NCBI RefSeq assembly: GCF_000092845.1
Contig: NC_014150.1
Coordinates: 3,168,704 to 3,232,703, forward strand
Source: Brachyspira murdochii DSM 12563
Lineage (GTDB): Bacteria > Spirochaetota > Brachyspiria > Brachyspirales > Brachyspiraceae
Reading direction: 5' to 3'
DNA length: 64,000 bases
A program made the position numbers and the translations under genes. Every line of letters begins with the position of its first letter. Positions within the stretch are counted from its first letter, which is position 1. Under the pieces are notes generated by a model. That model ran no database searches, was not told the origin of the DNA, and was given only the letters and a program-made list of their open reading frames with translations. This document shows, one piece after another, positions 249-52,563 of the stretch.

Positions 249-2837
249 ATGAAAAAATATAAACCAACAACAAAAGAAGAATTAAAAAGATTAGTATTCA
301 CCAACAACGGTATAAAACTTAGTTGTATTGATACAAGTCTTATTACAGATATGAGCGACCTTTTTAATAAAAGTGAAAGAAAAGATTTTGATGGCATAGA
401 AGAGTGGGATACTTCTAATGTTGAGAATATGGCTTATATGTTTGCATATATGGACTACAATGTTTTGGGACAATATTCAATGACAGAGTTTAATTCTAAT
501 TTAAATAATTGGAATGTATCAAAAGTGAAAAACATGATTTATATGTTTGCTTATTGTACATATTTTAATCAGCCTTTAAATAAATGGGACGTTTCAAATG
601 TGGAAAATATGTCTGGCATGTTTTTGGGTGCTAAAAAGTTTAATCAGCCTTTAAATAATTGGAATGTATCTAAAGTGAAAGATATGAGCGATATGTTTCA
701 TAGCTGTGAAGTATTTAATAGACCTTTGGACAAATGGGATGTTTCTAATGTTAAAGATATGTCTAATATGTTTAATGTGGCTTTGAAATTTAATCAGAAT
801 ATAAATAATTGGAATGTATCTAATGTTGAAGATTTATCAAAGACGTTTCGTTATTGTAAAGCTTTTGATCAGCCTCTTAATGATTGGGACGTATCTAATG
901 TGAAAAATATGCAACATATATTTTCGGACTGTGAAAATTTTAATCAGCCTTTAGATAAATGGGATACTTCTAATGTTGAAAGTATGGAATTTGCATTTAG
1001 AGCATGCGGTAAATTTAATCAGCCTTTAAATAGCTGGAATATGTCTAAAGTAACAAATATAGAGCATATGTTTGCTTTTACACACGAATTTAATCAGCCT
1101 CTTGATAAATGGGATACAAGAAATGTCATTAGTGTAATGCTGTTGTTTGCCTATGCACACAAGTTTGATCATTATGAATCTTTAGCAAATTGGAATTTAG
1201 ACAGTTTACAAGCTATAAATATAATTTGTGATGATAAGGATATGGATAAATTACCTACAAGAATTCAAGTATATAGGCAGGCATTTTTTCCTAAGGCCGA
1301 TATTATAAGTATAACAAAATTTAATGTTAAAGAAATATATGAGCTTATTGCAGATGATAAAAATAAAAAAGTTGTAAGATTGAAAAAAAGACTTGAAAGT
1401 GATTTCTCATCAGAGCTTTCATTTGTTACAAATAATTATAATTTCAAAACTATAGAAAAAGCAGAAAAGTATGCTGAAAGAAATTACAATGCTAAAAAAT
1501 ATGATAAGAAACTTGAATTTATAAAAAAGTGCCATGTATTAATAAAAGATAAATCAAGAGAAGTGAATATAAATCTTATAAAGTATATATATTCAGAATA
1601 TTTGTCTTTAAAGAAAACTATTAAAAAATTAGAAAAAATTGATAATATGGTTAATTTGCTTGATTTAAAATCATTTGTGAATTTTACTAAAGAGATTTAT
1701 TTAAAAAATCAAGATGAAGTTATCACTGCTTTTGTTTATGCTATGTACGGAGGAGATAAAGCTTTAAAGAAAATATCAGAATTAATGTATACTATTGAAT
1801 CAAAAAATCTCCTTACAATGATAAGCTTCAATATAGAAAGCAGATATGCTCAGAGTTTATTATATAAAATATATATAAATTCAACTAAAAGTGCAATTCG
1901 TAAAGAAGCAGTAGAAATGATTAATGACTTACTTGAAAAAATTAATATAGGCTATACTGAATTTAGATTAAGATGTATGCCTAATTTGGGATTTAATTCT
2001 AAAGGTGAAAAAGAATTAAATAAAGATTATAAATTAATTGTCAATAATGATTATACTTTAACTTTATTCGATATAAAAAATAATAAAGAATTAAAAAAAG
2101 TACCTCAAAGTATTGATAAAAAATTAAAAGAAGAAATAAAAGAATTAGGTAAAGAAGTAGATAAGTTTATTAATCATATCTCACATATTTTAGGTATTAT
2201 GTTAATAAACGGCGATATATTAAGCTGCGATTTATTTAAAGAAGTTTTTATTGATAATTATTTAATGAATAAATTTAGTTCTGGTTTAATATGGAACTTG
2301 TATGATAAAGATAAAAACTTTATAACAACTTTCAGATATACAAGCGATGGAACTTATACAAATTCTGAAAATGAAAAAATAAAAATTAATGCTGATAATT
2401 TTATAAGTTTGGCAAGTCCTATAGAAATGGACGATGAAACTATAGATAAATGGAGAAAACAGCTTGAAGATTGCCAATTATCACAGCCTATAAATCAATT
2501 AACACTTATAAAATTAGATAAAGATAATTTGAAAAAAGAAATAAAAAAGATAAAAAATATAGATACAAGCTACGGAGCTTTTAAATTCTTTGCTAAAAAA
2601 TATGAAATGCATAGCAATGATGTATTAGAAGATAATGTAACATATACATTTACATCAAATGATGGAGATATTTTTACAATGTCTGCAAAAGTTGATGAGG
2701 ATATAGAATATGATGATTTAGTAAATATTACTATCGATTTTAAAAAAGATAAAAATAAAAAAGAAATAAGTAAAAGATTTGTTTATACATTTTTAGTATT
2801 TATCATTTTGGATTTTAGACTTACAGATTTATTTTAA
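249..2837 (+). CDS. DUF285 (BspA-like) repeat protein with DUF4132-like C-terminus, paralogue 1
   Basis: 862 residues. Residues ~1-45 form a conserved cap (KPTTKEELKRLVF, then DTSLITDMSDLF). About ten 25-residue DUF285 units follow (FNQPLxxWDxSNVxxMxxMF), alternating between a DKWDTSNV type and an NNWNVSKV type, plus one degenerate unit. The C-terminal ~450 residues end in a block typical of DUF4132/MolR proteins: IWNLYD, TFRY, SLASPIEMD, IDKWRKQLED, then QPINQL. There is no signal peptide or lipobox, unlike classical BspA surface proteins, so a cytoplasmic location is inferred. ATG 249 is preferred to ATG 246 because AGGA (236-239) then sits nine bases from the start, exactly as in paralogue 3. 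It heads four tandem paralogues. Function unknown; annotation as a surface protein on repeat similarity alone would be doubtful. Confidence 0.85.
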   Translation: MKKYKPTTKEELKRLVFTNNGIKLSCIDTSLITDMSDLFNKSERKDFDGIEEWDTSNVENMAYMFAYMDYNVLGQYSMTEFNSNLNNWNVSKVKNMIYMFAYCTYFNQPLNKWDVSNVENMSGMFLGAKKFNQPLNNWNVSKVKDMSDMFHSCEVFNRPLDKWDVSNVKDMSNMFNVALKFNQNINNWNVSNVEDLSKTFRYCKAFDQPLNDWDVSNVKNMQHIFSDCENFNQPLDKWDTSNVESMEFAFRACGKFNQPLNSWNMSKVTNIEHMFAFTHEFNQPLDKWDTRNVISVMLLFAYAHKFDHYESLANWNLDSLQAINIICDDKDMDKLPTRIQVYRQAFFPKADIISITKFNVKEIYELIADDKNKKVVRLKKRLESDFSSELSFVTNNYNFKTIEKAEKYAERNYNAKKYDKKLEFIKKCHVLIKDKSREVNINLIKYIYSEYLSLKKTIKKLEKIDNMVNLLDLKSFVNFTKEIYLKNQDEVITAFVYAMYGGDKALKKISELMYTIESKNLLTMISFNIESRYAQSLLYKIYINSTKSAIRKEAVEMINDLLEKINIGYTEFRLRCMPNLGFNSKGEKELNKDYKLIVNNDYTLTLFDIKNNKELKKVPQSIDKKLKEEIKELGKEVDKFINHISHILGIMLINGDILSCDLFKEVFIDNYLMNKFSSGLIWNLYDKDKNFITTFRYTSDGTYTNSENEKIKINADNFISLASPIEMDDETIDKWRKQLEDCQLSQPINQLTLIKLDKDNLKKEIKKIKNIDTSYGAFKFFAKKYEMHSNDVLEDNVTYTFTSNDGDIFTMSAKVDEDIEYDDLVNITIDFKKDKNKKEISKRFVYTFLVFIILDFRLTDLF

Positions 2838-2937
2838 TTATAACAAATAATTTTTAGGCATCATAGTTTTGTGTCTTCTATAAAAATATAATTGATTTTT
2901 ATAATATTATATATCCATATTGAAATTAGGGGAATTG

Positions 2938-5340
2938 ATGAATAAACATAAACCAGCAGCAAAAGAAGAACTTAAAAAATTAGTATTTACTGACGGTATA
3001 AAACTTAGCGATGTAGATACAAGCCTTATTACAGATATTAGTGAACTTTTTCAGAAAAGTGAAAGAAAAGATTTTGAAGGCATAGAGGACTGGGATACTT
3101 CTAATGTTGAAAATATGTCTTGGATGTTTAGAGAATGTTTAAGTTTTAATCAGCCTTTAGACAAATGGGATACTTCTAATGTTACAAATATGAGCGGTAT
3201 GTTTAGTCTTGCTAAAACTTTTAATCAGAATATAAATAATTGGAATGTTAGTAAAGTTGAAGATATGAGTTATATGTTTAATGCATGTGGCTCTTTTAAT
3301 CAGCCTCTTAATAATTGGGACGTATCCAATGTAAAAACTATGGAGGCTATGTTTCATTCCGCCATTTCTTTTAATCAGCCTTTAGATAAATGGAATACTT
3401 CAAAAGTTGAAAACATGCATGATATGTTTTGCCGATGTAAACAATTTAATCAGCCTTTAAATAGCTGGAATGTATCCAATGTAAAAACTATGGAATCTAT
3501 GTTTTATTCTGCCGATTCTTTTAATCAGCCGCTTGATAAATGGAATACAAAAAGATTAAGTAAAATGTACTCAATGTTTAAATATACTGACAGTTATGAC
3601 TCTTATGACTCATTAGCAAATTGGGATTTAAGTAAAGTATCAGATATTAGTGATTTCTGTTCTAACTATGAAAGATTCTATGAAAAATTGCCTTTAAGAC
3701 TTAGAGTATATATGCAGGCATTTTATGGTTCTCACAAAGTTTATGTACCTATAGAAAATAATGAAGAATATGATGATGATTTTATATCAGAAGAATATGA
3801 TTTAGTATCAAGAGATTATATAACTATCACAAAAGAGAATGTCAAAGAAGTATATAATGCAATATTAAAAGATACAAATAAAAAAGTTATGGCATTAAAA
3901 AAGAAATTAGAAACAGAGTTTAGTGAAGAACTTTCATCTGTTACTGATGATTATAATTTCAAAACTATAGAAGAAGCAGAAAAGTATGTGGAAAACAATT
4001 ATAATAAAAAAGATGATAAGAAGGTAAGCTTTATAAGTAATTATAAGGTTTTGATAAAGGGTAAATCAAGAGAAGTTGAAAATAAAGTTTTAAAATATAT
4101 ATATTTAGAGTATTTGGTTCTAAAAAGAGATGTTAAAAAATTAACACAAATTGACAATATAGTTAATTTACTTGATAAAGAATCATTTATAGAGTTTATC
4201 AAAAATATTTATAATGAAACGAATAAAGAAACCTCTGCTTTTATTTACGGAATATATGGAGGAGATAAAGCCGTAAAAAATATATATAAAAAAGAAAAAG
4301 ATACTAAACTTTCACTTTTAATAATTAAATTAAATATAGAAAGCAAATATGCACTTAGATTATTATATGAAATATATTCAAGTACAAAAAAATCTGAAAT
4401 ACGTTATGAAGCTTATAATCTAATTGAGGAAGTGATTAAAAAAATGAATATTAGCTATGAGGAGTTTGAATTAAGATTTTCTCCTGATTTCAGCTTTAAT
4501 TCTCAAGGTGAGAGACTATTAAATGAAGATTATAAATTAATTTTGAATGGTGATTATTCTTTGAGTCTTTTTGATATAAAAAATAATAAAGAATTAAAAA
4601 AGATTCCTCAAAACTTTAATGAAGATTTAAAAGATGAAATAACAAAGTTAAGAAAAAAAATTCCTTCTTTTATGAAAGATACTTCTTCTCTTTTAGCGAT
4701 TTTATTAGCAAGCGGAGAGAAATACAATTATGATGTATTCAAAGATGTTTTCATTGATAATGCTATGATGAATAGATTTGCTTCATCTTTTATATGGAAT
4801 TTATATGATAATAACAATAATTTCATAACTACTTTCAGATATTCAGGCGACGGAAGTTATTCAAACTGTGAAGATGAAGAAGTAAAAATTGATGATAATA
4901 GTTTTGTAAGTTTGGCAAGCCCTGTAGAAATGGACGAACACACTATAGATAAATGGAGAAAGCAGCTTGAAGATTATGAAATAGCACAGCCTTTACAGCA
5001 ATTAACTGTTATAAAATTAGATAAAGATAATTTGAAAAGTGAAATAGAAAAAATAGATAATTCAGAAATAGCCTATGGTACTTTTAAGGCTTTTGGTGCA
5101 AGATATGAAATGTATTCTGAGTATATAGGATACGATGTCGTTAAAAGCTATTCATTAAAAACAAAGAATGGAGATACTTTTACTATAGATGCAGATGTTA
5201 ATTCTAAAACCGATTTTCATGACAGAGTAAAAATTAATATTTATTTTGATAATGAAAATGGTGAAGAGGTGAGTAAAAGATTTATTTATACTTTATTGGT
5301 ATTAATGATTTGGGATTTTAGACTTACAGATTTATTTTGA
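2938..5340 (+). CDS. DUF285 repeat protein with DUF4132-like C-terminus, paralogue 2 (fewer repeats)
   Basis: 800 residues with the same architecture as paralogue 1: N-terminal cap, DUF285 repeats, then a DUF4132-like region ending in FRLTDLF. It has only about seven full repeat units plus a degenerate one, against ten in the others, so three units have been lost or never gained. It also carries an acidic insert (EEYDDDFISEEYD) after the repeats. The start at ATG 2938 follows AGGGGAA at 2928-2934; the upstream in-frame TTG at 2920 would put that ribosome site inside the gene. The block IDKWRKQLEDYEIAQPLQQL is the clearest DUF4132 signature in the cluster. No signal peptide. The gap to the preceding gene is 100 bases. 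Confidence 0.85.
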   Translation: MNKHKPAAKEELKKLVFTDGIKLSDVDTSLITDISELFQKSERKDFEGIEDWDTSNVENMSWMFRECLSFNQPLDKWDTSNVTNMSGMFSLAKTFNQNINNWNVSKVEDMSYMFNACGSFNQPLNNWDVSNVKTMEAMFHSAISFNQPLDKWNTSKVENMHDMFCRCKQFNQPLNSWNVSNVKTMESMFYSADSFNQPLDKWNTKRLSKMYSMFKYTDSYDSYDSLANWDLSKVSDISDFCSNYERFYEKLPLRLRVYMQAFYGSHKVYVPIENNEEYDDDFISEEYDLVSRDYITITKENVKEVYNAILKDTNKKVMALKKKLETEFSEELSSVTDDYNFKTIEEAEKYVENNYNKKDDKKVSFISNYKVLIKGKSREVENKVLKYIYLEYLVLKRDVKKLTQIDNIVNLLDKESFIEFIKNIYNETNKETSAFIYGIYGGDKAVKNIYKKEKDTKLSLLIIKLNIESKYALRLLYEIYSSTKKSEIRYEAYNLIEEVIKKMNISYEEFELRFSPDFSFNSQGERLLNEDYKLILNGDYSLSLFDIKNNKELKKIPQNFNEDLKDEITKLRKKIPSFMKDTSSLLAILLASGEKYNYDVFKDVFIDNAMMNRFASSFIWNLYDNNNNFITTFRYSGDGSYSNCEDEEVKIDDNSFVSLASPVEMDEHTIDKWRKQLEDYEIAQPLQQLTVIKLDKDNLKSEIEKIDNSEIAYGTFKAFGARYEMYSEYIGYDVVKSYSLKTKNGDTFTIDADVNSKTDFHDRVKINIYFDNENGEEVSKRFIYTLLVLMIWDFRLTDLF

Positions 5341-5383
5341 TTATAATAAATAATTTTTAAATTTATAATTAGGATATTAGATT

Positions 5384-6571
5384 ATGAAAAAATACAAACC
5401 AGCAACAAAAGAAGAACTCAAAAAATTAGTATTTACTGACGGTATAAAGCTTAATTGTGTTGATACAAGTCTTATAACGGATATGAGCAATCTTTTTCAT
5501 GAAAGTAAAAGAAAAGATTTTAAAGGCATAGAAGATTGGGACGTTTCTAATGTTGAGGATATGTCTTATATGTTTGCATATATGGACTATAATTTTATTT
5601 TAGACTTATCAAAAATAGATTTTAATCCTAATTTAAATAATTGGAATGTATCTAAAGTTAAAAAGATGAGTAATATGTTTGCCTATTGTTCTAATTTTAA
5701 TCAGCCTTTAGATAAGTGGGATACTTCTAATGTTTCCGATATGTCATTTATGTTTTTGGGGGCAAAAGTTTTTAATCAGCCTCTTAATGATTGGAATGTT
5801 TCTAATGTTAAAGATATGAGAGGTATGTTTAAGTTAGCAGAAAGTTTTAATCAGCCTTTGGATAAATGGGATACTTCTAATGTTGAAGATATGTCTTGTA
5901 TGTTTAATCTGGCAAAAAACTTTAATCAGCCTTTAAATAATTGGAATATATCTAAAGTTGAAGATTTATCAAATATGTTTAGTTATTGTACTATTTTTAA
6001 TCAGCCTCTTAACGATTGGGACGTATCTAATGTAAAAAATATGGAATCTTTGTTTGATAGTTGTTCTAATTTTAATCAGCCTTTAGATAATTGGGATACT
6101 TCTAATGTTGAAAATATGTTTAGAATGTTTGATGATTGTAAAAACTTTAATCAGCCTTTAAATAGCTGGAATGTATCCAATGTAACAAATATTGCATACA
6201 TGTTTATGTTGGCAAAAAGTTTTAATCAGCCGCTTGATAAATGGAATACAAAAAAAGTAATTAGTATAGCATTTTTATTTCAATATGCCGATAAGTTTGA
6301 TCATTATGAATCTTTAGAACATTGGAATTTAGATAAATTAAAAGATATAACTTTAATTTGTGATGATGAAAATAAATTGCATACAAGACTTAAAGTATAT
6401 ATGCAAGTTTTTTATCCTAAAGAAGATTATATAACTATAACAAAAGATAATGTTAAAGAAATATATAATCTTATTGCGAAAGACAAAAATAGAAGAATCT
6501 CTAGATTAAGAAAAAAACTTGAAAGTGATTTTTCTAAGGAGCTTTCATCTATTACAAAAAATTCTGATTAA
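5384..6571 (+). pseudogene. C-terminally truncated DUF285 repeat protein, paralogue 3
   Basis: 395 codons with an intact N-terminal cap and ten DUF285 units plus a degenerate one. It ends at SSITKNSD, where the full-length paralogues continue for about 460 residues with SSVTDDYNFKTIEEAEKY and the DUF4132-like region. DNA after the stop (about 6572-6600) still resembles the paralogues' continuation (ACTATAAAAAAATAATG against ACTATAGAAAAAGCAGA). The next gene's ribosome site starts at 6617, so the rest of the domain is deleted. The repeat part is open and has a normal ribosome site (AGGA 5371-5374), so a repeat-only protein may still be made. I class it as a truncated gene because the whole C-terminal domain is missing. 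Confidence 0.75.
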
Positions 6572-6626
6572 AAAACTATAAAAAAATAATGAAAAATGCT
6601 ATATTAAAATCAATTTGGAGAGAATT

Positions 6627-9215
6627 ATGAGAAAATACAAACCAGAAACAAAAAAAGAATTAAAAAAATTAGTATTTACTGATGGTATAAAACTTTGTTA
6701 TATTGATACAAGTCTTATCACAGATATGAGCAAACTTTTTTATGAAAGCAAAAGAAAAGATTTTGAAGGTATAGAAGATTGGGACGTTTCTAATGTTACA
6801 AATATGGATATGATGTTTGCCTATATGGGCTATAATGCGTTGGTAAGATATTCAAATATAGATTTTAATCCTGATTTAAGTAATTGGAATGTATCTAAAG
6901 TAAAAAGTATGAATAATATGTTTGCTCATTGTTCTAATTTTGACCAGCCTTTGGAGAAATGGGACGTTTCAAATGTTGAAGATATGTCCTTTATGTTTTA
7001 TGGTGCGAATGAGTTTAATCAGCCTTTAAATAATTGGAATGTATCAAAAGTTAAAAATATGAGAGGTATGTTTCAGGAATGCGAAAATTTTAATCAGCCT
7101 TTGAATAAATGGGATACTTCTAATGTTGAAGATATGTCTAATATGTTTACTCGGGCAAAAGTTTTTAATAAGCCTTTAAATAAATGGAATACTTCTAAAG
7201 TTAAAGATTTATCAAGTATGTTTGCATATTGTGATATTTTTAATCAGAACATTAATGATTGGGACGTTTCTAATGTTACAAATATGGATTCTTTGTTTAG
7301 GCAATGCGAAAAATTAAATCAGCCTTTTGATAAATGGGATACTTCTAATGTTGTAAACATGGAAAAGACATTTTTCTCATGCATGAAATTTGATCAGCCT
7401 TTAAATAGTTGGAATGTGTCTAATGTAGAAAATATGGATATGATGTTTTATATGGCACAAACTTTTAATCAGCCTCTTGATAAATGGAATACACAAAAAC
7501 TAATCACTGCTGCGGGACTATTTAGATTTGCCTATAAGTTTGATAATTATGAGTCTTTAGAAAATTGGAATTTAGATAATTTAGAAGAAGTTGGTACTTT
7601 TTGCGATGATGAGGATAAATTACATACAAGACTTAAAGTATATATGCAGGCCTTTTATCCTAAAGAAGATTATATAACTATAACAAAATTTAATGTTAAA
7701 GAAATATATAATCTTATTGCAAAAGATAAAAATAAAAGAATTGTAAGATTGAGAAAAAGAATTGAAAGTGATTTTTCTAATGAGCTTTCATTTGTTACAA
7801 ATGATTATAATTTCAAAACTATAGAAAAAGCAGAAAAGTATGCTCAAAAAAAATATAATGCTAAAAAAGAAGATAAAAAACTTGAATTTATAAAAGATTG
7901 CCATGTTCTAGTAAAAGATAAATCAAGAGAGGTAAATATTACAGTGATAAAGTATATATATTCAGAGTATTTATCTTTAAAAAGAATGATTAACAGATTA
8001 GAAAAAATTGATAATATAGTTAACTTGCTTGACTTTGAATCATTTTTTAAGTTCATTAGAGAAATTTATTTAGAAAATCAAAACACAGAGATTGCAGGTT
8101 TTATTTATGCTATGTACGGAGGAGATGAAGCTTTAAAAGAGATATCTGAATTAATATTATTAGGTATTGATTCAAAAGTTTTCCTTATAATGATAAAATT
8201 CAATATAGAAAGCAGATATGCTCAAAGTTTATTATATGAAATATATTCAGATACAAAGAAAAATGAAGTTCTCAAAGAAGCTGGAAAAATGATTAATGAA
8301 TTGATTGAAAAAATGAATATTGGTTATACTGAATTTAGATTAAGATGTATGCCTAATTACGGATTTACTTCTCAAGGTGAAAAAATATTAAATGATGATT
8401 ATAAATTAATTTTGAATAATGATTATTCTGTAACCTTATTTGATATAAAAAATAATAAAGAATTAAAAAAGATTCCTCAAAACCTTGATGAAAAATTAAA
8501 AGAAGAAGTCAAAGAATTGAAAAAAGAAATACCAAAGTTTATTAACCATAGCACTTCTATTTTGAGTATTACATTAATAGACGGTGATATATACAGCTAT
8601 GATTTGTTTAAAGAAGTTTTTATTGATAATTATTTAATGAATAAATTAGCATCTTCTTTGATATGGAATCTGTATGATAAAGATAAAAAAATTATAACAA
8701 CTTTTAGATATTCAGCTGATGGGAGTTATTCAAATTGTGATGATGAAGATGTAAAGATTAATTCTAACAATTTTATAAGTTTGGCAACTCCTGCAGAAAT
8801 GGATAATAAGACTATAGATAAATGGAGAAAAAAGCTTGAGAATTATGAGTTATCACAGTCAATAAATCAATTGACACTTATAAAATTGGATAAAAAGAAT
8901 TTGAAAAAAGAAATAAAAAAGATAAAAAGTATAGAAGCAAGTTACGGAGCTTTTAAGGCATTTGCTAAAAGATATGATATGTATACCAATGATGTATTTG
9001 GATATAATGATACTATAACATATACATTTCCTGCAAATGACGGAGATATTTTTACAATGTCTTCAAAAGTCGATGCAGATACAGAATACGATGAGCCAGT
9101 AGATATAACTATTGATTTTAAAAAGAGTGAAAATAAAAAAGAAATCAGTAATAGATTTGTTTATACTTTTTTGGTATTTATAATTTCAGATTTTAGGCTT
9201 ACTGATTTATTTTAG
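6627..9215 (+). CDS. DUF285 repeat protein with DUF4132-like C-terminus, paralogue 4
   Basis: 862 residues, the same length and layout as paralogue 1: cap (YKPETKKELKKLVFTDGIKL), ten DUF285 units plus one degenerate unit, a helical linker, and the DUF4132-like block (SLIWNLYDKDKK, TFRYSADGSYSN, IDKWRKKLENYELSQ) with the shared terminus FRLTDLF. ATG 6627 is chosen because GGAGAG lies at 6617-6622; an upstream TTG (6615) would begin before that site. No signal peptide. Clusters of this kind usually arise by tandem duplication, and the near-identical repeats make unequal exchange likely. Function unknown. Confidence 0.85.
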   Translation: MRKYKPETKKELKKLVFTDGIKLCYIDTSLITDMSKLFYESKRKDFEGIEDWDVSNVTNMDMMFAYMGYNALVRYSNIDFNPDLSNWNVSKVKSMNNMFAHCSNFDQPLEKWDVSNVEDMSFMFYGANEFNQPLNNWNVSKVKNMRGMFQECENFNQPLNKWDTSNVEDMSNMFTRAKVFNKPLNKWNTSKVKDLSSMFAYCDIFNQNINDWDVSNVTNMDSLFRQCEKLNQPFDKWDTSNVVNMEKTFFSCMKFDQPLNSWNVSNVENMDMMFYMAQTFNQPLDKWNTQKLITAAGLFRFAYKFDNYESLENWNLDNLEEVGTFCDDEDKLHTRLKVYMQAFYPKEDYITITKFNVKEIYNLIAKDKNKRIVRLRKRIESDFSNELSFVTNDYNFKTIEKAEKYAQKKYNAKKEDKKLEFIKDCHVLVKDKSREVNITVIKYIYSEYLSLKRMINRLEKIDNIVNLLDFESFFKFIREIYLENQNTEIAGFIYAMYGGDEALKEISELILLGIDSKVFLIMIKFNIESRYAQSLLYEIYSDTKKNEVLKEAGKMINELIEKMNIGYTEFRLRCMPNYGFTSQGEKILNDDYKLILNNDYSVTLFDIKNNKELKKIPQNLDEKLKEEVKELKKEIPKFINHSTSILSITLIDGDIYSYDLFKEVFIDNYLMNKLASSLIWNLYDKDKKIITTFRYSADGSYSNCDDEDVKINSNNFISLATPAEMDNKTIDKWRKKLENYELSQSINQLTLIKLDKKNLKKEIKKIKSIEASYGAFKAFAKRYDMYTNDVFGYNDTITYTFPANDGDIFTMSSKVDADTEYDEPVDITIDFKKSENKKEISNRFVYTFLVFIISDFRLTDLF

Positions 9216-15029: not shown

Positions 15030-15380
15030 AAAAATCCTCCTCACATCTTGTGCAGAAGGAAATCTTATATAAAAAAATACAATTATTTTTCTAACATAAG
15101 TTTCCTTACATAAAGATAAATAATTGTACTTGATTAGATCTTTAACTATTTTTTAGTTTATTTGAGCCTATACAGTAATTTTATACTTTTACTGCTCATG
15201 TTGATCATTCACAAGTACGTTTATTCCTTATAAATAATTTAACACGATTGAATCGCAAATCGGCTTTTGACCCGGCTGTCCGTATGGCCTCTTTTCCCCT
15301 TTTTTGAAGGTTAAGGTCAAAATAATTTTACCAAAATGGATGCAATAGCAATCAAATAAACCACTCGATTTTCTATTACG
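15030..15380 (-). promoter_or_regulatory. structured 5' leader of the polyamine operon (candidate riboswitch)
   Basis: About 350 bases lie between the promoter and speD. The part at 15240-15380 is unusually complex for this genome. In the minus-strand RNA, TTTTGACC (plus 15315-15322) pairs perfectly with GGTCAAAA (plus 15265-15272). This closes a region holding a CCTT/AAGG hairpin and a GGCC...AGCC hairpin (plus 15274-15289), in other words a three-way-junction-like fold. CGATT/AATCG forms another stem (plus 15245-15262 region), and CAGTAA/TTACTG one further downstream. The attenuator-like hairpin closes the leader. I could not match it to SAM, lysine, guanidine, cobalamin, TPP, THF or T-box consensus features. 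No leader peptide with a good ribosome site was seen. Confidence 0.5.
15071..15128 (-). terminator. attenuator-like hairpin just upstream of speD
   Basis: In the minus-strand transcript, an 11-bp perfect stem (15118-15128 with 15078-15088) encloses a second small hairpin with a GAAA loop. It is followed directly by seven U residues (15071-15077). It lies ~30 bases before the speD ribosome site, where a transcription attenuator would sit. The stem is AT-rich, so its strength in vivo is uncertain. Confidence 0.5.
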
Positions 15381-45283: not shown

Positions 45284-46789
45284 TTAGAATTTAAATATAA
45301 AAGGCATAAATGTTATTGCAAATCTCTTTGTTCTTATATAATATTCAACAGTAAGCGACTGATAGAATATATCCAAAGTAGCTGAAACTTTATAATCATA
45401 GTAGAAATAATCTCCCTTTGACTGAGCGGTAGGGGCTATTAAATCTTTTATGGTATCATTATTTCCTGCTATGTTAGCGTATATATAAGGGAATTTTATA
45501 TCACCTTGATATGATAGTAAACCGTAAGTAAGATCTACACCGCCCGAAAAGTATAAAGCAAAATAATGTATATAAGGAATTTTTTCCTGTGATTTGAACC
45601 CTACTGTTAATTTAGGACTTAAAGAAAAAGTATGCCATTTTGTTTTACTTCTAAAATCACCATTGAAAACTAATCCTGTATCAACCTTATCTTCTCCCAT
45701 TTGTACAGGGTAATAGAAGGTATTATTAAATCCGAAATCTAAATAACCCATATCATAATTAGCATTCAGACGTAAATCTGTAAAGAACCAGCTATTTCTG
45801 TATATTAAAGTTTTGAATTCCAATCCGGCATGAAAACCGAAAGATTGTATATCAAGGTCTGTTATAAACATTTTGTATAGTTCTTTAAACCCTAAAAGAC
45901 CTCCCACTCTAAACCCCAATGAAAATGGAGCAGTCCAAGTATTTACTTCTCCTACAAGCTGTAAATATGGCAGAGGAACAGCATCTATTGCATCAAGAAC
46001 AACATCATAATTTCCTGAAGATATATCTTTATCTGAGGCACTAAGTTTATTTATATTAGCAGGAAAATCAGAATATACATTAATACCTAAAGAACCTAAA
46101 GGAAAATGCATAGGTATTAATAATCCGTAGTTTTCACCTGCTGTTGATATATTGGCAAATTTAGTTTTTAATCTGTCTACGGCTTTACTGGCTATTTGAT
46201 AATTTCCATTAACTGCTTCCATATATAATAGAGATGTACCTATAAATGAAAGAGCAGCAGCATTTGTAGTATAATTTAGTATATCAGCAGGATTTTTAAA
46301 TACTGTTATAAGCTGAAGAGGATTAAAACTATCTATTGTTTTTTTATAAAGATCATTTAATTGCTGATTTTCTCCGATAAAGTCTTTGATATTCTGTTTT
46401 AGAGGGTCTGAGTATCCTCTTTCATTCATATATAAATCCAAAATATCAGTATATTTTAATTGTTCTACAAACTTATCAGAATTAACATTAAAATCTGTAA
46501 TACCTACTGTTTGACCTAAAATCATATCCGTAGCAGATGGAATAGATATTGTTATTTCTACAGATTCTTTTATCCCGTCCTCCGTATTATTTAATATATC
46601 TTTTATATCCTGTGGTAATACCGTACCAATAGCAGGATTAGTACTTATAAATCCTTCTATATCTAATAGAGTTCCGCTAACAGTTCCGCCATTTATGGTA
46701 TCATAATTATCAACTAGTTCTGCTTGTAATTTAGCTATTGATGTAAAAAATAGCATAAAAAATATAGTCATTATTTTTGTATTTTTCAC
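45284..46789 (-). CDS. large outer-membrane beta-barrel protein
   Basis: 501 residues starting at GTG 46789, with AAGGAGA eight bases upstream. A signal peptide (TIFFMLFFTSIAKLQA) is followed by a helical N-terminal part and, from ~240, alternating strand segments (FSLGFRVGGLLGFKELY, WHTFSLSPKLTVGFKSQEK, TVEYYIRTKRFAITFMPFIF). It ends in Phe, the usual barrel-assembly signal. No family is recognised; it is paralogous to the broken gene at 35564. It lies between three lipoproteins and an OmpA-domain protein, so it is likely a surface-exposed porin-like or antigenic protein. Confidence 0.8.
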   Translation of the reverse strand: MKNTKIMTIFFMLFFTSIAKLQAELVDNYDTINGGTVSGTLLDIEGFISTNPAIGTVLPQDIKDILNNTEDGIKESVEITISIPSATDMILGQTVGITDFNVNSDKFVEQLKYTDILDLYMNERGYSDPLKQNIKDFIGENQQLNDLYKKTIDSFNPLQLITVFKNPADILNYTTNAAALSFIGTSLLYMEAVNGNYQIASKAVDRLKTKFANISTAGENYGLLIPMHFPLGSLGINVYSDFPANINKLSASDKDISSGNYDVVLDAIDAVPLPYLQLVGEVNTWTAPFSLGFRVGGLLGFKELYKMFITDLDIQSFGFHAGLEFKTLIYRNSWFFTDLRLNANYDMGYLDFGFNNTFYYPVQMGEDKVDTGLVFNGDFRSKTKWHTFSLSPKLTVGFKSQEKIPYIHYFALYFSGGVDLTYGLLSYQGDIKFPYIYANIAGNNDTIKDLIAPTAQSKGDYFYYDYKVSATLDIFYQSLTVEYYIRTKRFAITFMPFIFKF

Positions 46790-49315: not shown

Positions 49316-50530
49316 TTAATTATCTTCTTGAATGTCAATAAATTCTATTACATAATGAGTTAATGCTTTATTAGGTGAAATATATTCATTACCTTGTAAT
49401 CCTCCCATTTTTGTTGCAACATCATAAAAGTATTGATTAACTTTATAATTAGCATCAGCTTTTATAGATTCATAGCAGGCTTGTTCTATTTCTGATTGAG
49501 GTTTGTCTGAAGCAACGGCAGCCAATGCCTTTGATAATGCATTTTGAGCTTCTGTTTTATATTTATCTATCTCTGTTTGTAATCCTGATTTAGTATATGA
49601 ACCAGGACTACAATGTTCTACAAATCTGATTAAATAATCTTTACCGTCTTTTTTTACAGGCATTAACCATATTTGATGCGGAGATTGTTTTCCTATCCAT
49701 ACATAATTTGTATCATTTTCAATATATTCTGTAGGGTTTATTCTAAAATCAGCAGTAGTTCCTGTTGAAATGTTTATTCCTATATCAAACATATGATGAT
49801 TATTAAAATCTTCTTCATTAAATGTGAACTTTGTTTCTAATCTTTGAGCTAACTGCTTCATTCTATCATCAAGTCTTTCTATACTGAATTGAAGTCCTCC
49901 TCCTGTGTAAACGTAAGTATAAGTTACACCGTTATCAGCTTTAATCTGTACTCTATTTAAATCTACAGCTTCCATTTTTGTAGTTCCTGCAGGTTGCGTG
50001 CTGCTTCCTGTATCAGTCCAGTTTTTGAAGTCGGAAGTTTTAAAATAATTTCCTGCTGATGAGTCCTGCACATATACGTATGAAGAATCTTTATATGCAT
50101 TGCCTTGAGATATTTTAGCTATCCTTGTATATTCATTATTATTTCTGCCTACTTTTATATTAACTTCTTTCATTTTGAAATTATCATTAACATCTATTTC
50201 TAATATATGCCCGTCAACTCTTCCATTTAGTGTATCAACAATTACTTGATTGTTTGCATCATAGTAATATCTGTATGCAGCAGTAAGATAATAATGCCCG
50301 TTAAACTCAAAATAATGTTCAAAGTGTCCGTAAACAATATCTCTGCTAATTGATGTTTTTACAGGTGTAACCTTAACTGTTGCATCTTTAGAAGGTATGC
50401 TCAAATTTGCTATAGGAGCTTCTACAAATTCCGTTCTATTTGGTATAGATGGATTAAATATATTTCTTTTGCATGAAACTCCAGTTAGTATAATTAATAT
50501 ACAAGATATAGTTATCAGTATTCTATTCAT
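49316..50530 (-). CDS. surface lipoprotein, paralogue A
   Basis: 404 residues. Lipobox LTGVSC, then KRNIFNPSIPNRTEFVEA and PIANLSIPSKDATVKVTPV. The conserved block is DFNNHHMFDIGINISTG, DFRINPTEYIENDTNYVWIG, HQIWLMPVKKDGKDYLIRFV; the end is LTHYVIEFIDIQ. First of three tandem paralogues. DNA coding for the SIPSKDA region is nearly identical in all three, which would favour gene conversion. Confidence 0.8.
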   Translation of the reverse strand: MNRILITISCILIILTGVSCKRNIFNPSIPNRTEFVEAPIANLSIPSKDATVKVTPVKTSISRDIVYGHFEHYFEFNGHYYLTAAYRYYYDANNQVIVDTLNGRVDGHILEIDVNDNFKMKEVNIKVGRNNNEYTRIAKISQGNAYKDSSYVYVQDSSAGNYFKTSDFKNWTDTGSSTQPAGTTKMEAVDLNRVQIKADNGVTYTYVYTGGGLQFSIERLDDRMKQLAQRLETKFTFNEEDFNNHHMFDIGINISTGTTADFRINPTEYIENDTNYVWIGKQSPHQIWLMPVKKDGKDYLIRFVEHCSPGSYTKSGLQTEIDKYKTEAQNALSKALAAVASDKPQSEIEQACYESIKADANYKVNQYFYDVATKMGGLQGNEYISPNKALTHYVIEFIDIQEDN

Positions 50531-50542
50531 TTATTTATCCTG

Positions 50543-50770
50543 TCAATTTTCAATATTTTCATCATGTTTATTAATTAAATAAGAATATTTATTGATAGAG
50601 CAAGTATTTGTAACTTTTTCATTATTGAGAATATCGATACTTATAGATTTAACTTCTTCTTGTAAAATAAAGATTGAAATTATTGATACAATTATTATAA
50701 CTGTAAATAATACAATAAGCATCAGACCCCTTAATATAATAATCAATGATAATAAAACTTTTCTAAACAT
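50543..50770 (-). CDS. small single-pass membrane protein
   Basis: 75 residues with an AGGAGA ribosome site nine bases ahead of ATG 50770 and a gap of only 12 bases to the first lipoprotein. Residues ~5-35 are strongly hydrophobic (RGLMLIVLFTVIIIVSIISI), followed by a polar tail. There is no lipobox. It appears to be the first gene of the lipoprotein operon. No family recognised. The good ribosome site and tight spacing support it as a real gene. Confidence 0.6.
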   Translation of the reverse strand: MFRKVLLSLIIILRGLMLIVLFTVIIIVSIISIFILQEEVKSISIDILNNEKVTNTCSINKYSYLINKHDENIEN

Positions 50771-51045
50771 TATTATAATCTCCTAAAATAAAATATTTAT
50801 ATATAAAATTATTTATTATCAGAATTTGATATGCTTTTTTCTTAATGGAGAAATATACGATTACTTTATTATAATTTTTGTGTTTTACATTATTGGTATA
50901 TATTAGTTTTAATTTGTCTAATATTAGAGGTTTTATCGGTTTCAGATTGTTTATATATATTTTTGATAATAAGAAATAATAGTAATATGATTTTTTGAAA
51001 AAATGCTTATGGTTTGTTAATGAAAAAATAAAGTTTAAAGAATTA

Positions 51046-51099
51046 GCTGTGCTGTGCTGTGCTGTGCTGTGCTGTGCTGTGCTGTGCTGTGCTGTGCTG
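51046..51099. repeat. pentanucleotide array (GCTGT)10
   Basis: Ten perfect GCTGT copies (51046-51095) plus a partial copy. The flanks (TAATGAAAAAATAAAGTTTAAA before; ACAAGTATTTTT after) resemble those of the second array, so the two are related units. It lies ~275 bases upstream of the minus-strand lipoprotein operon. Five-base units change the local spacing rather than a reading frame. Likely variable in length between strains. Confidence 0.95.
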
Positions 51100-51305
51100 C
51101 ATATTTACTCCTAAAAACTATATTTTAAAAATATATCATATTACATATATTTTACAAGTATTTTTTTCTTATCAATATATAAAATGTATTATATGTAAGA
51201 TGATTAACATATATTTTTATATCTGTTATGTAATTATCTAAAATTTTGCAATATGGATAGATATAATAATTTTTTAATGAAAAAAGAAAATTTAAAATAT
51301 TAGAT

Positions 51306-51384
51306 GTTCTGTTCTGTTCTGTTCTGTTCTGTTCTGTTCTGTTCTGTTCTGTTCTGTTCTGTTCTGTTCTGTTCTGTTCTGTTC
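51306..51384. repeat. pentanucleotide array (GTTCT)15
   Basis: Fifteen perfect GTTCT copies (51306-51380) plus GTTC. It is embedded in a unit (about 51262-51455) whose flanks match those of the GCTGT array ~250 bases away (TAATGAAAAAAGAAAATTTAAA before; TCAAGTATTTT after). It lies ~535 bases upstream of the lipoprotein operon. This is the kind of locus used in variable-number repeat typing of Brachyspira hyodysenteriae. Confidence 0.95.
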
Positions 51385-51567
51385 ATATTAAGAATCTCGT
51401 AAAAAAAATTTATTTTATTATATCACATAGTAAATATTTTTCAAGTATTTTAAAATTCATTTACATATTAAATAATATATTTATTTTTTCTTACTTTAAT
51501 TTTTATACATCTTATTATTTTACTGAAAATAATAAGAAATTTGATAAAATTACTAAAGTTAATTTCC

Positions 51568-51668
51568 AAGCGGCCGATAATATATCTAGTTGATTGGACT
51601 ACCCCCCAATAACTATATTTGTAATAAGCCGCTTTGTTCATCCCACAAAAGCGGTTTATTTTTTTATA
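51568..51668 (+). ncRNA. candidate structured RNA with terminator (uncharacterised)
   Basis: On the plus strand AAGCGGC (51568-51574) can pair perfectly with GCCGCTT (51628-51634), enclosing a hairpin built on ATTGG (51592-51596) and CCAAT (51606-51610). Alternatively, the same GCCGCTT pairs with AAAGCGGT downstream to form a terminator followed by TTTATTTTTTTA (to 51668). Two exclusive folds sharing one strand resemble attenuators. No plus-strand gene follows for ~1.8 kb, so it may be a small RNA. I see no clear promoter and no match to tRNA or known riboswitches. It may also partly end truB transcripts coming from the other side. Confidence 0.4.
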
Positions 51669-51687
51669 AATAAAGCTTTCAAATTTA

Positions 51688-52563
51688 TCAGACATCTATA
51701 AAAGAGTAGACATTCTTATCTTTTTTTTCTATAATTGCTAGAAGATTTTCTTTATTATCGGTCAATGATAAATATCTATTTTTTATTTTTATATTTTCTA
51801 TCATTTTGGTATTGCCGCATAGTATTTGTTTTATTGTATTATCATCTTCAATAATTTCCTTCTCAAAGTTATTAAACATTTCAAAGAATGAGAGCATTTT
51901 TCCTTTTTTTATATCTTCTATACTGCAGGCTGTATCAATATTATAATTTCCTATAGATACTCTTGTTAATTCTTTTGTATAAGCTAAGTTACCTGTTATA
52001 TTTCCTATATCCCTTATTATAGACCTTATATAAGTACCTTTGCTTACTGAAGTTTTTATTTTGAAATATGGATAATCATATTCTAATAATTCAATGTTGT
52101 TAATACATACTTCAGCATCTTTTAATTGAAAACTTTGATTATTTCTTGCCAAATCATAAGCTCTTTTTCCATTAATTTTTTTAGCACTGTATATAGGAGG
52201 TTTCTGCAAAATATTTCCTTTAAAATTTTTTTTTATAATTTTTTCTAATTCTTCAAAACTTAATTTATTATTGATATCAGATTTTTTTATTATATTTCCT
52301 TCTATATCATCAGTATCTCTCATTTCGCCAAATACTCCTAATGCAATGTATTCTTTAGGCATATCATCAAATAAGAAAAATAATTTGGTATATCTTCCAA
52401 ATGCCAGTATTAAAACCCCGTTTGCAAAAGGATCTAATGTTCCTGCATGACCTATTTTTTTTTCTATAATATTTTCTTTTTCTCTTAATGTTTTTTTTAC
52501 CTGTTTTATAGCATCAAAAGAAGTTATGCCTATAGGTTTATTTAAGATACAAAAACCTTTCAT
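51688..52563 (-). CDS. truB: tRNA pseudouridine-55 synthase
   Basis: 291 residues. The catalytic Asp is in KIGHAGTLDPFANGVLIL; other motifs are LNKPIGITSFDAIKQVKK at the start, PPIYSAKKINGKRAYDLAR and VSKGTYIRSIIRDIG. It modifies U55 in the T loop of most tRNAs. A short C-terminal extension follows the catalytic domain. The ribosome site is AGGGAT. Confidence 0.95.
   Translation of the reverse strand: MKGFCILNKPIGITSFDAIKQVKKTLREKENIIEKKIGHAGTLDPFANGVLILAFGRYTKLFFLFDDMPKEYIALGVFGEMRDTDDIEGNIIKKSDINNKLSFEELEKIIKKNFKGNILQKPPIYSAKKINGKRAYDLARNNQSFQLKDAEVCINNIELLEYDYPYFKIKTSVSKGTYIRSIIRDIGNITGNLAYTKELTRVSIGNYNIDTACSIEDIKKGKMLSFFEMFNNFEKEIIEDDNTIKQILCGNTKMIENIKIKNRYLSLTDNKENLLAIIEKKDKNVYSFIDV

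Follow-up and report, generated by a model that had tools for sequence, protein, structure and literature searches.

A predicted phase-variable leader with five-base repeats upstream of a surface-lipoprotein operon in Brachyspira murdochii

Contingency genes of Neisseria, Haemophilus, and Campylobacter carry repeats inside the coding sequence, and slipped-strand changes of the frame turn surface functions ON and OFF. In the stretch of Brachyspira murdochii DSM 12563 DNA analysed here (64,000 nucleotides; NC_014150.1, positions 3,168,704 to 3,232,703; hereafter the window), two 5-base arrays are located upstream of an operon for surface lipoproteins. The species, a gut spirochete, is described as non-pathogenic in the paper on the B. 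murdochii 56-150T genome (PMC3035287). Unlike the repeats of in-gene contingency loci, the window array lies in a leader, and a stop codon and a 75-aa ORF come before the lipoprotein gene. How, then, could the length of such an array affect the operon?

An earlier note on this DNA had described the arrays as (GCTGT)10 and (GTTCT)15, lying 275 and approximately 535 nt upstream of the operon. Tandem Repeats Finder confirmed both, with copy counts of 10.8 (unit 1) and 16.0 (unit 2; unit TGTTC, equal to GTTCT) and 100% matching in each case, and listed no further 5-base array in the 64-kb window. Because the window is AT-rich (37% T, 35% A, 14% G, and 13% C) and the arrays are long, these perfect G/C-containing arrays are not due to chance. 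The distances also hold, counted to the start of the 75-aa ORF (50768-50770); the start codon of the first lipoprotein, at 50528-50530, lies beyond this ORF.

Table 1 Features of the two repeat units and of the downstream operon, in window coordinates.
Feature	Position	Strand	Basis or remark
Unit 2 promoter-like site	51417-51444	-	Consensus match: TTGAAA (51439-51444), 16 nt, TATAAT (51417-51422)
Unit 2 weak SD-like ACGAG	51396-51400	-	Sequence
Unit 2 leader start ATG	51384-51386	-	30 nt after the -10
Unit 2 array	51305-51384	-	16.0 copies; GTTCT on +, AGAAC on -
Unit 2 leader after array	51152-51304	-	One frame open for 153 nt
Unit 1 promoter-like site	51130-51157	-	Consensus match: TTGTAA (51152-51157), 16 nt, TATATT (51130-51135)
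Unit 1 Shine-Dalgarno AGGAG	51108-51112	-	Sequence; 5 nt before the ATG
Unit 1 leader ORF start ATG	51100-51102	-	Directly adjoins the array
Unit 1 array	51046-51099	-	10.8 copies; GCTGT on +, CAGCA/AGCAC phase on -
Unit 1 leader after array	50763-51045	-	One frame open for 283 nt
75-aa ORF, first of the operon	50543-50770	-	Own SD AGGAG; hydrophobic N-terminus; no Pfam match
Lipoprotein-like gene, 404 aa	49316-50530	-	First of three tandem paralogues
Second lipoprotein paralogue, 406 aa	48080-49300	-	Sequence comparison
Third lipoprotein paralogue, 407 aa	46816-48039	-	Sequence comparison
Exported protein, 501 aa, closing the operon	45284-46789	-	No Pfam or NCBIfam match

On the minus strand, each unit has the same order of a promoter-like site, a start codon, an array, and an open frame (Table 1). 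The promoter calls are sigma70-like consensus matches only, with 17 sites in the region against 13.3 expected from shuffles; the site of unit 2 was the best of the region (11 of 12), and a TG precedes the -10 of unit 1. The promoter-like sites of the two units lie 27-30 nt before the ATG. From codon 2 onward the leader consists of the array, encoding M(QHSTA)n in unit 1 and M(NRTEQ)n in unit 2. After the unit 1 array, stops occur in the three frames at +3, +11, and +283 nt; as computed from these frames, repeat number switches the leader peptide between a short and a long form. The long frame ends in a TAG 8 nt past the A of the ATG of the 75-aa ORF (ATG at +275). In unit 2 the stops are at +5, +13, and +153 nt, and the long frame ends inside the -35 of unit 1, approximately 50 nt before the unit 1 ATG. 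It is uncoupled, and unit 2 is probably a displaced duplicate.

No Pfam match was obtained among the operon proteins searched, and no solved structure was found for the lipoprotein. The genome has six copies of the lipoprotein, three in the window and the others at C1:2769838, 1218250, and 1020652. Matches were present in 16 of 26 Brachyspira genomes, those outside the own genome being only partial (26-40% identity), and no close relative was found in the genomes of 25 other Brachyspira species. A wider scan of genome contigs, which may omit the window's own records, gave no relatives. Near the arrays, no tRNA was found, and the only structured RNA match in Rfam was a sub-threshold one to osmY (E 0.96, 51846-51903).

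Three further features of the window were recorded. A strong hairpin with a T-run lies on the plus strand at about 51627-51665, preceded by ACTACCCCCC, with no plus-strand gene nearby and no Rfam match. A gathering-level Rfam match to the Streptococcus sRNA model SpF59 at 15260-15319 (minus strand) is unexpected in a spirochete and is perhaps a cross-match. Positions 500-7500 hold a long series of degenerate 75-base repeats coding for surface repeats, which we take to be BspA-like.

Based on the anatomy of unit 1, we propose with a probability of roughly 0.6 that the leader is phase-variable and gates translational coupling onto the operon by its reading frame. A sigma70-type promoter would read toward the lipoprotein operon, and the message would open with an ATG directly followed by the 5-base array; since a promoter-like site and an ATG precede each array, both arrays would be transcribed and translated. 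As 5 is not a multiple of 3, slipped-strand mispairing that adds or removes one repeat would shift the ribosome from one of the three frames to another. In two frames the ribosome would stop right after the array, and in the third it would translate the entire leader, whose stop overlaps the start of the operon's first ORF. Ribosomes would thereby be delivered to that start (translational coupling), the message would be protected, or both, and the long frame would be expected to raise operon expression. Unit 1 would be the working switch, and array length probably controls the surface-lipoprotein operon. Against this proposal, coupling need not be required, since the downstream ORFs carry good SDs themselves, and unit 1 is followed first by the 75-aa ORF rather than by the lipoprotein.

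The two units were compared with each other and with the rest of the genome. As a bare pair, their flanks on the 3' side of the array (minus-strand sense) scored 41, where the best of 500 shuffles reached 40, and the promoter-side flanks scored 50, within the top of the null (49-53). Unit 1 was 76% identical to the locus at C1:1219.5k over 285 leader nt, and unit 2 was 93% identical to it over the array and the following sequence; the flanks are better supported genome-wide than as a pair. The claim of the earlier note that two related units stand upstream of the operon is accordingly upheld, with flanks that recur at paralogous loci. Its idea that matching flanks mark an element generating such arrays fared otherwise. 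A genome search with the shared flanks was positive at the paralogous lipoprotein loci and negative at other arrays; flank similarity was seen at only 4 of 15 arrays in the genome, and such arrays occur in 24 of 26 species of the genus, in most cases between different flanks. An array-generating mobile element was rejected, since the flanks recur only at lipoprotein loci. They are instead a module of putative promoter, start codon, and leader ORF, which is also found upstream of three other lipoprotein loci.

At two of these loci, L067 (array C1:1219772-1219829, 11.6 copies) and L071 (array C1:2771269-2771316, 9.6 copies), promoter, ATG, array, and leader are all present, and no intrinsic terminator was found. 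The long-frame stop lies 1 nt past the A of the lipoprotein start at L067 (TAATG) and 4 nt past it at L071 (ATGA). The leaders differ in length (283 nt in unit 1, 248 nt at L067, and 199 nt at L071), and the stop remains on the next start. In the 76% alignment of the unit 1 and L067 leaders, indels restore the frame. The spacing from SD to ATG at L067/L071 is long (15 nt). The arrays, their continuity with the ATG, the three frames, and the stop/start overlap with its repetition at two paralogous loci are thus direct observations on the sequence.

Overlaps of stop and start codons couple translation, for example between ABC-transporter genes, in the accessible part of one report (PMC3711429). 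The overlaps found here (ATGA and TAATG; stops at +8, +1, and +4 nt at unit 1, L067, and L071, in one frame of three) resemble such pairs. What sets them apart from the coupling pairs in the published passages is the hypermutable array that gates the upstream frame.

We asked how often such an overlap arises by chance. Against dinucleotide-shuffled leaders, a frame with its stop no more than 20 nt from the start had P = 0.0004 (unit 1), 0.0010 (L067), and 0.0026 (L071); the unit 1 loci were the starting point of the study, and their P values are not blind. The controls were upstream regions, taken from the same genomes, that held neither arrays nor genes. A frame open for 195 nt with a stop within 20 nt of the start occurred in 3 of 78 regions, and over 250 nt in 1 of 68; a looser gene cut-off gave 5/81 and 3/71, respectively. 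Both lists count the window lipoprotein behind the 75-aa ORF as a positive. Over 120 nt, 15 of 107 controls were positive, and short leaders therefore say little. An earlier control, in which unrecognised genes had been taken as intergenic (21-38 positives of 103-138), was discarded.

The shuffle test covered 16 leader loci, and in 14 of them a stop fell within 20 nt of the next start, six with P < 0.05; the other two, L147 and L170, showed no coupling. Leaders L127, L173, and L171 had P values of 0.015, 0.010, and 0.045, respectively. Outside this test were unit 2, L123 and L128, where the leader runs in frame into a lipoprotein, and L125, which is without a clear next gene. Folding of the leaders paired the SD and start, with an SD unpaired value of 0.10-0.20 at three loci; 21% of 89 control genes were equally low, and the value for unit 1 reversed to 0.73 when only 120 nt was folded. 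Many controls showed SD masking at least as strong as that of the window locus.

Translational coupling is the most likely predicted action on the next gene, the other being shielding from Rho. According to the latter explanation, the short frames leave about 270 nt of leader untranslated and Rho ends the transcript, whereas ribosomes in the long frame shield it. A rho gene is present, well over the cut-off, and no terminator-like site was found in 50400-51700, that is, no intrinsic terminator stands between unit 2 and the operon, while many other arrays of the genus are served by intrinsic terminators. Shielding, however, does not need the exact stop/start overlap seen at three loci, and the leader is C-poor. 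We therefore regard Rho as unlikely, though it is the strongest of the alternatives.

The leader might also matter as a protein. If the ON-frame leader were a phase-variable small protein, its overlap with the operon would be ordinary gene packing. The unit 1/L067 leader peptides gave a pN/pS of 0.54 over 81 codons, lower than the median from neutral simulations that avoided stops (P 0.003, 0.035, and 0.058 at kappa 1, 2, and 4, respectively), as this explanation would predict. On the other hand, a close pair (L127/L123) gave a dN/dS of 1.08 with six changes, leaders before homologous lipoproteins are scarcely alike (unit 1 versus L071), and leader length varies while the stop remains at the next start. 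The leader peptide seems to be only weakly conserved and the frame to be kept more than the peptide, and we consider the small-protein explanation improbable.

Slightly less probable still is that a phase-variable gene once stood here and has left the arrays and leader as functionless relics. All four array-bearing leaders (units 1 and 2, L067, and L071) are OFF, in a short frame, in the reference, and unit 2 is uncoupled. At a fourth locus, L072, 2.8 copies are left, the -10 is changed to TAGTAT, and the leader is broken by a small indel; array, promoter, and frame decayed together, which also counts in favour of the frame-gated leader. However, the arrays are perfect and the long frames intact at unit 1, L067, and L071, and OFF is expected two times in three. 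The suggestion of the earlier note that array length acts through promoter spacing or DNA bending is very improbable: the unit 2 array does lie approximately 150 bp upstream of the unit 1 promoter, but each array lies downstream of its own -10 and directly after its ATG, and this position and the frame are kept across paralogues and species.

The frame-gated leader was then considered in the whole genus, with one genome per species. The AGMMS x6 pattern was present in 24 of the 26 species genomes, with no such array in G006 and G023. The 103 arrays analysed were those of at least 25 nt in stretches from all matching genomes except G008 (103 pattern rows); shorter arrays, at L072, L074, and in L106 (5.2 copies), fell outside this set. 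Copy number ranged from 6.0 to 52.2 (median 11.0). Of these arrays, 74 are found where a longer reading frame ends and 29 close to where one starts, and the neighbour genes tested were glycosyltransferases, an oxidoreductase, and rmlC.

A hairpin with a T-run follows 20-110 nt downstream of 54 of the 103 arrays, and these hairpins are mostly terminator-like, at the 3' ends of glycan genes. Such a candidate intrinsic terminator lies at 46 of the 74 gene-3' arrays and at 8 of the 29 five-prime arrays, the latter partly SD hairpins. All 54 loci have one or more frames that enter the hairpin and one or more that stop over 10 nt upstream of it; the same was seen in 15 of 15 sequence clusters, with 8.3 expected from shuffles for reaching the hairpin (P ~2.5e-5). 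Typically the stops are at +3, +10, and +95, the hairpin at 63-98, and the next start at +132. Among gene-end hairpin loci, 13 of 27 with one such frame and 17 of 19 with two are now in a hairpin-reaching frame.

The other gene-end arrays comprise 6 without a hairpin that have a coupled stop and 22 with neither, which the frame-gate model leaves unexplained. At the rmlC junctions L068, L121, L132, and L149, which are without a hairpin, the long frame overlaps the rmlC start. At L121:2385-2645 (G001), a 52-copy AGAAG array stands at the gene end before an rmlC-sized ORF whose start is overlapped by the long frame. A subgroup of gene-end arrays (L119, L120, L122, L124, L126, L133, and L169), mostly of AGAGC units with stops at about +3/+10/+35, has a common TTATTATCG tail and fits neither hairpin nor coupling.

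Four loci in four species (L140, L142, L153, and L159) have a short leader before a protein starting MLFSSM, which was an MBOAT acyltransferase where tested (L140). The SD of this gene is held within a stem (-9 to -19 kcal/mol) that translation of the leader would cross. Separate from the window locus, these are the clearest structural case for coupling in the set. The recurrence of the same predicted logic in leaders of the genus, MBOAT loci, and hairpin loci argues for frame gating. We hold it about evenly balanced whether, throughout Brachyspira, 5-base AG-rich arrays in 5' leaders or at gene 3' ends act on operons as reading-frame gates that decide ribosome run-on to the next gene by opening a terminator hairpin, an SD-masking hairpin, or an overlapped start.

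Contingency loci of the in-gene type also exist in Brachyspira, in lipoproteins (L107, L111, and L113) and restriction-modification genes (L073, L134, and L144). At L073:3775-3824 (C1:2150774-2150823), (AGCAC)10 directly follows the ATG of an Eco57I/MmeI-like restriction-modification gene that is out of frame in the reference, and the same gene has 8.0 copies at L134 and 7.0 at L144. At L074:3640-3660 (C1:136639-136659), (CACAG)4.2 is part of a leader ORF, the open frame of which continues into a gene for a secreted protein; the leader ATG is about 6 nt after a -10-like box, and the message may be leaderless.

No description of Brachyspira 5-base arrays was found in the literature covered, most subscription journals lying outside that coverage. 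The retrieved passages of Brachyspira genome papers do not treat them, and in excerpts of Brachyspira papers that mention phase variation, the term concerns only Vsp proteins in general or stands in a reference title. The one published case of repeat-gated leader attenuation found was pil1/pil3 of Streptococcus gallolyticus. In the available text of that study (Danne et al. 2014, PMC3894217), the length of a leader peptide depends on GCAGA repeats within its ORF, and at pil1 a long leader prevents a premature stem-loop terminator located 39-49 bp past the short stop.

As far as that text describes pil1, the window arrays are similar in lying in a leader ORF with an RBS and ATG upstream of a surface operon, and in that the number of repeats determines both frame and leader length, a long leader being the form that would bring the ribosome to a control point. 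The gene-3' arrays of Brachyspira also have a hairpin that one frame crosses. Unlike pil1 as described there, the window units and lipoprotein paralogues have no terminator and the long frame ends on the next start codon, and most Brachyspira hairpin cases are at gene 3' ends inside operons. From their sequence, the window units would work like pil1 but are not members of its type, because the premature terminator is absent; the Rho explanation amounts to the same pil1 logic with Rho replacing the intrinsic terminator.

Dozens of Brachyspira sites seem to employ this logic, some of them in the terminator-free form with a stop/start overlap. If so, one type of phase-variable cassette allows individual junctions in glycan and lipoprotein operons to be switched; repeats inside a gene could do this only by changing a protein. 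Frame gating would explain how Brachyspira could vary its lipoproteins and surface sugars.
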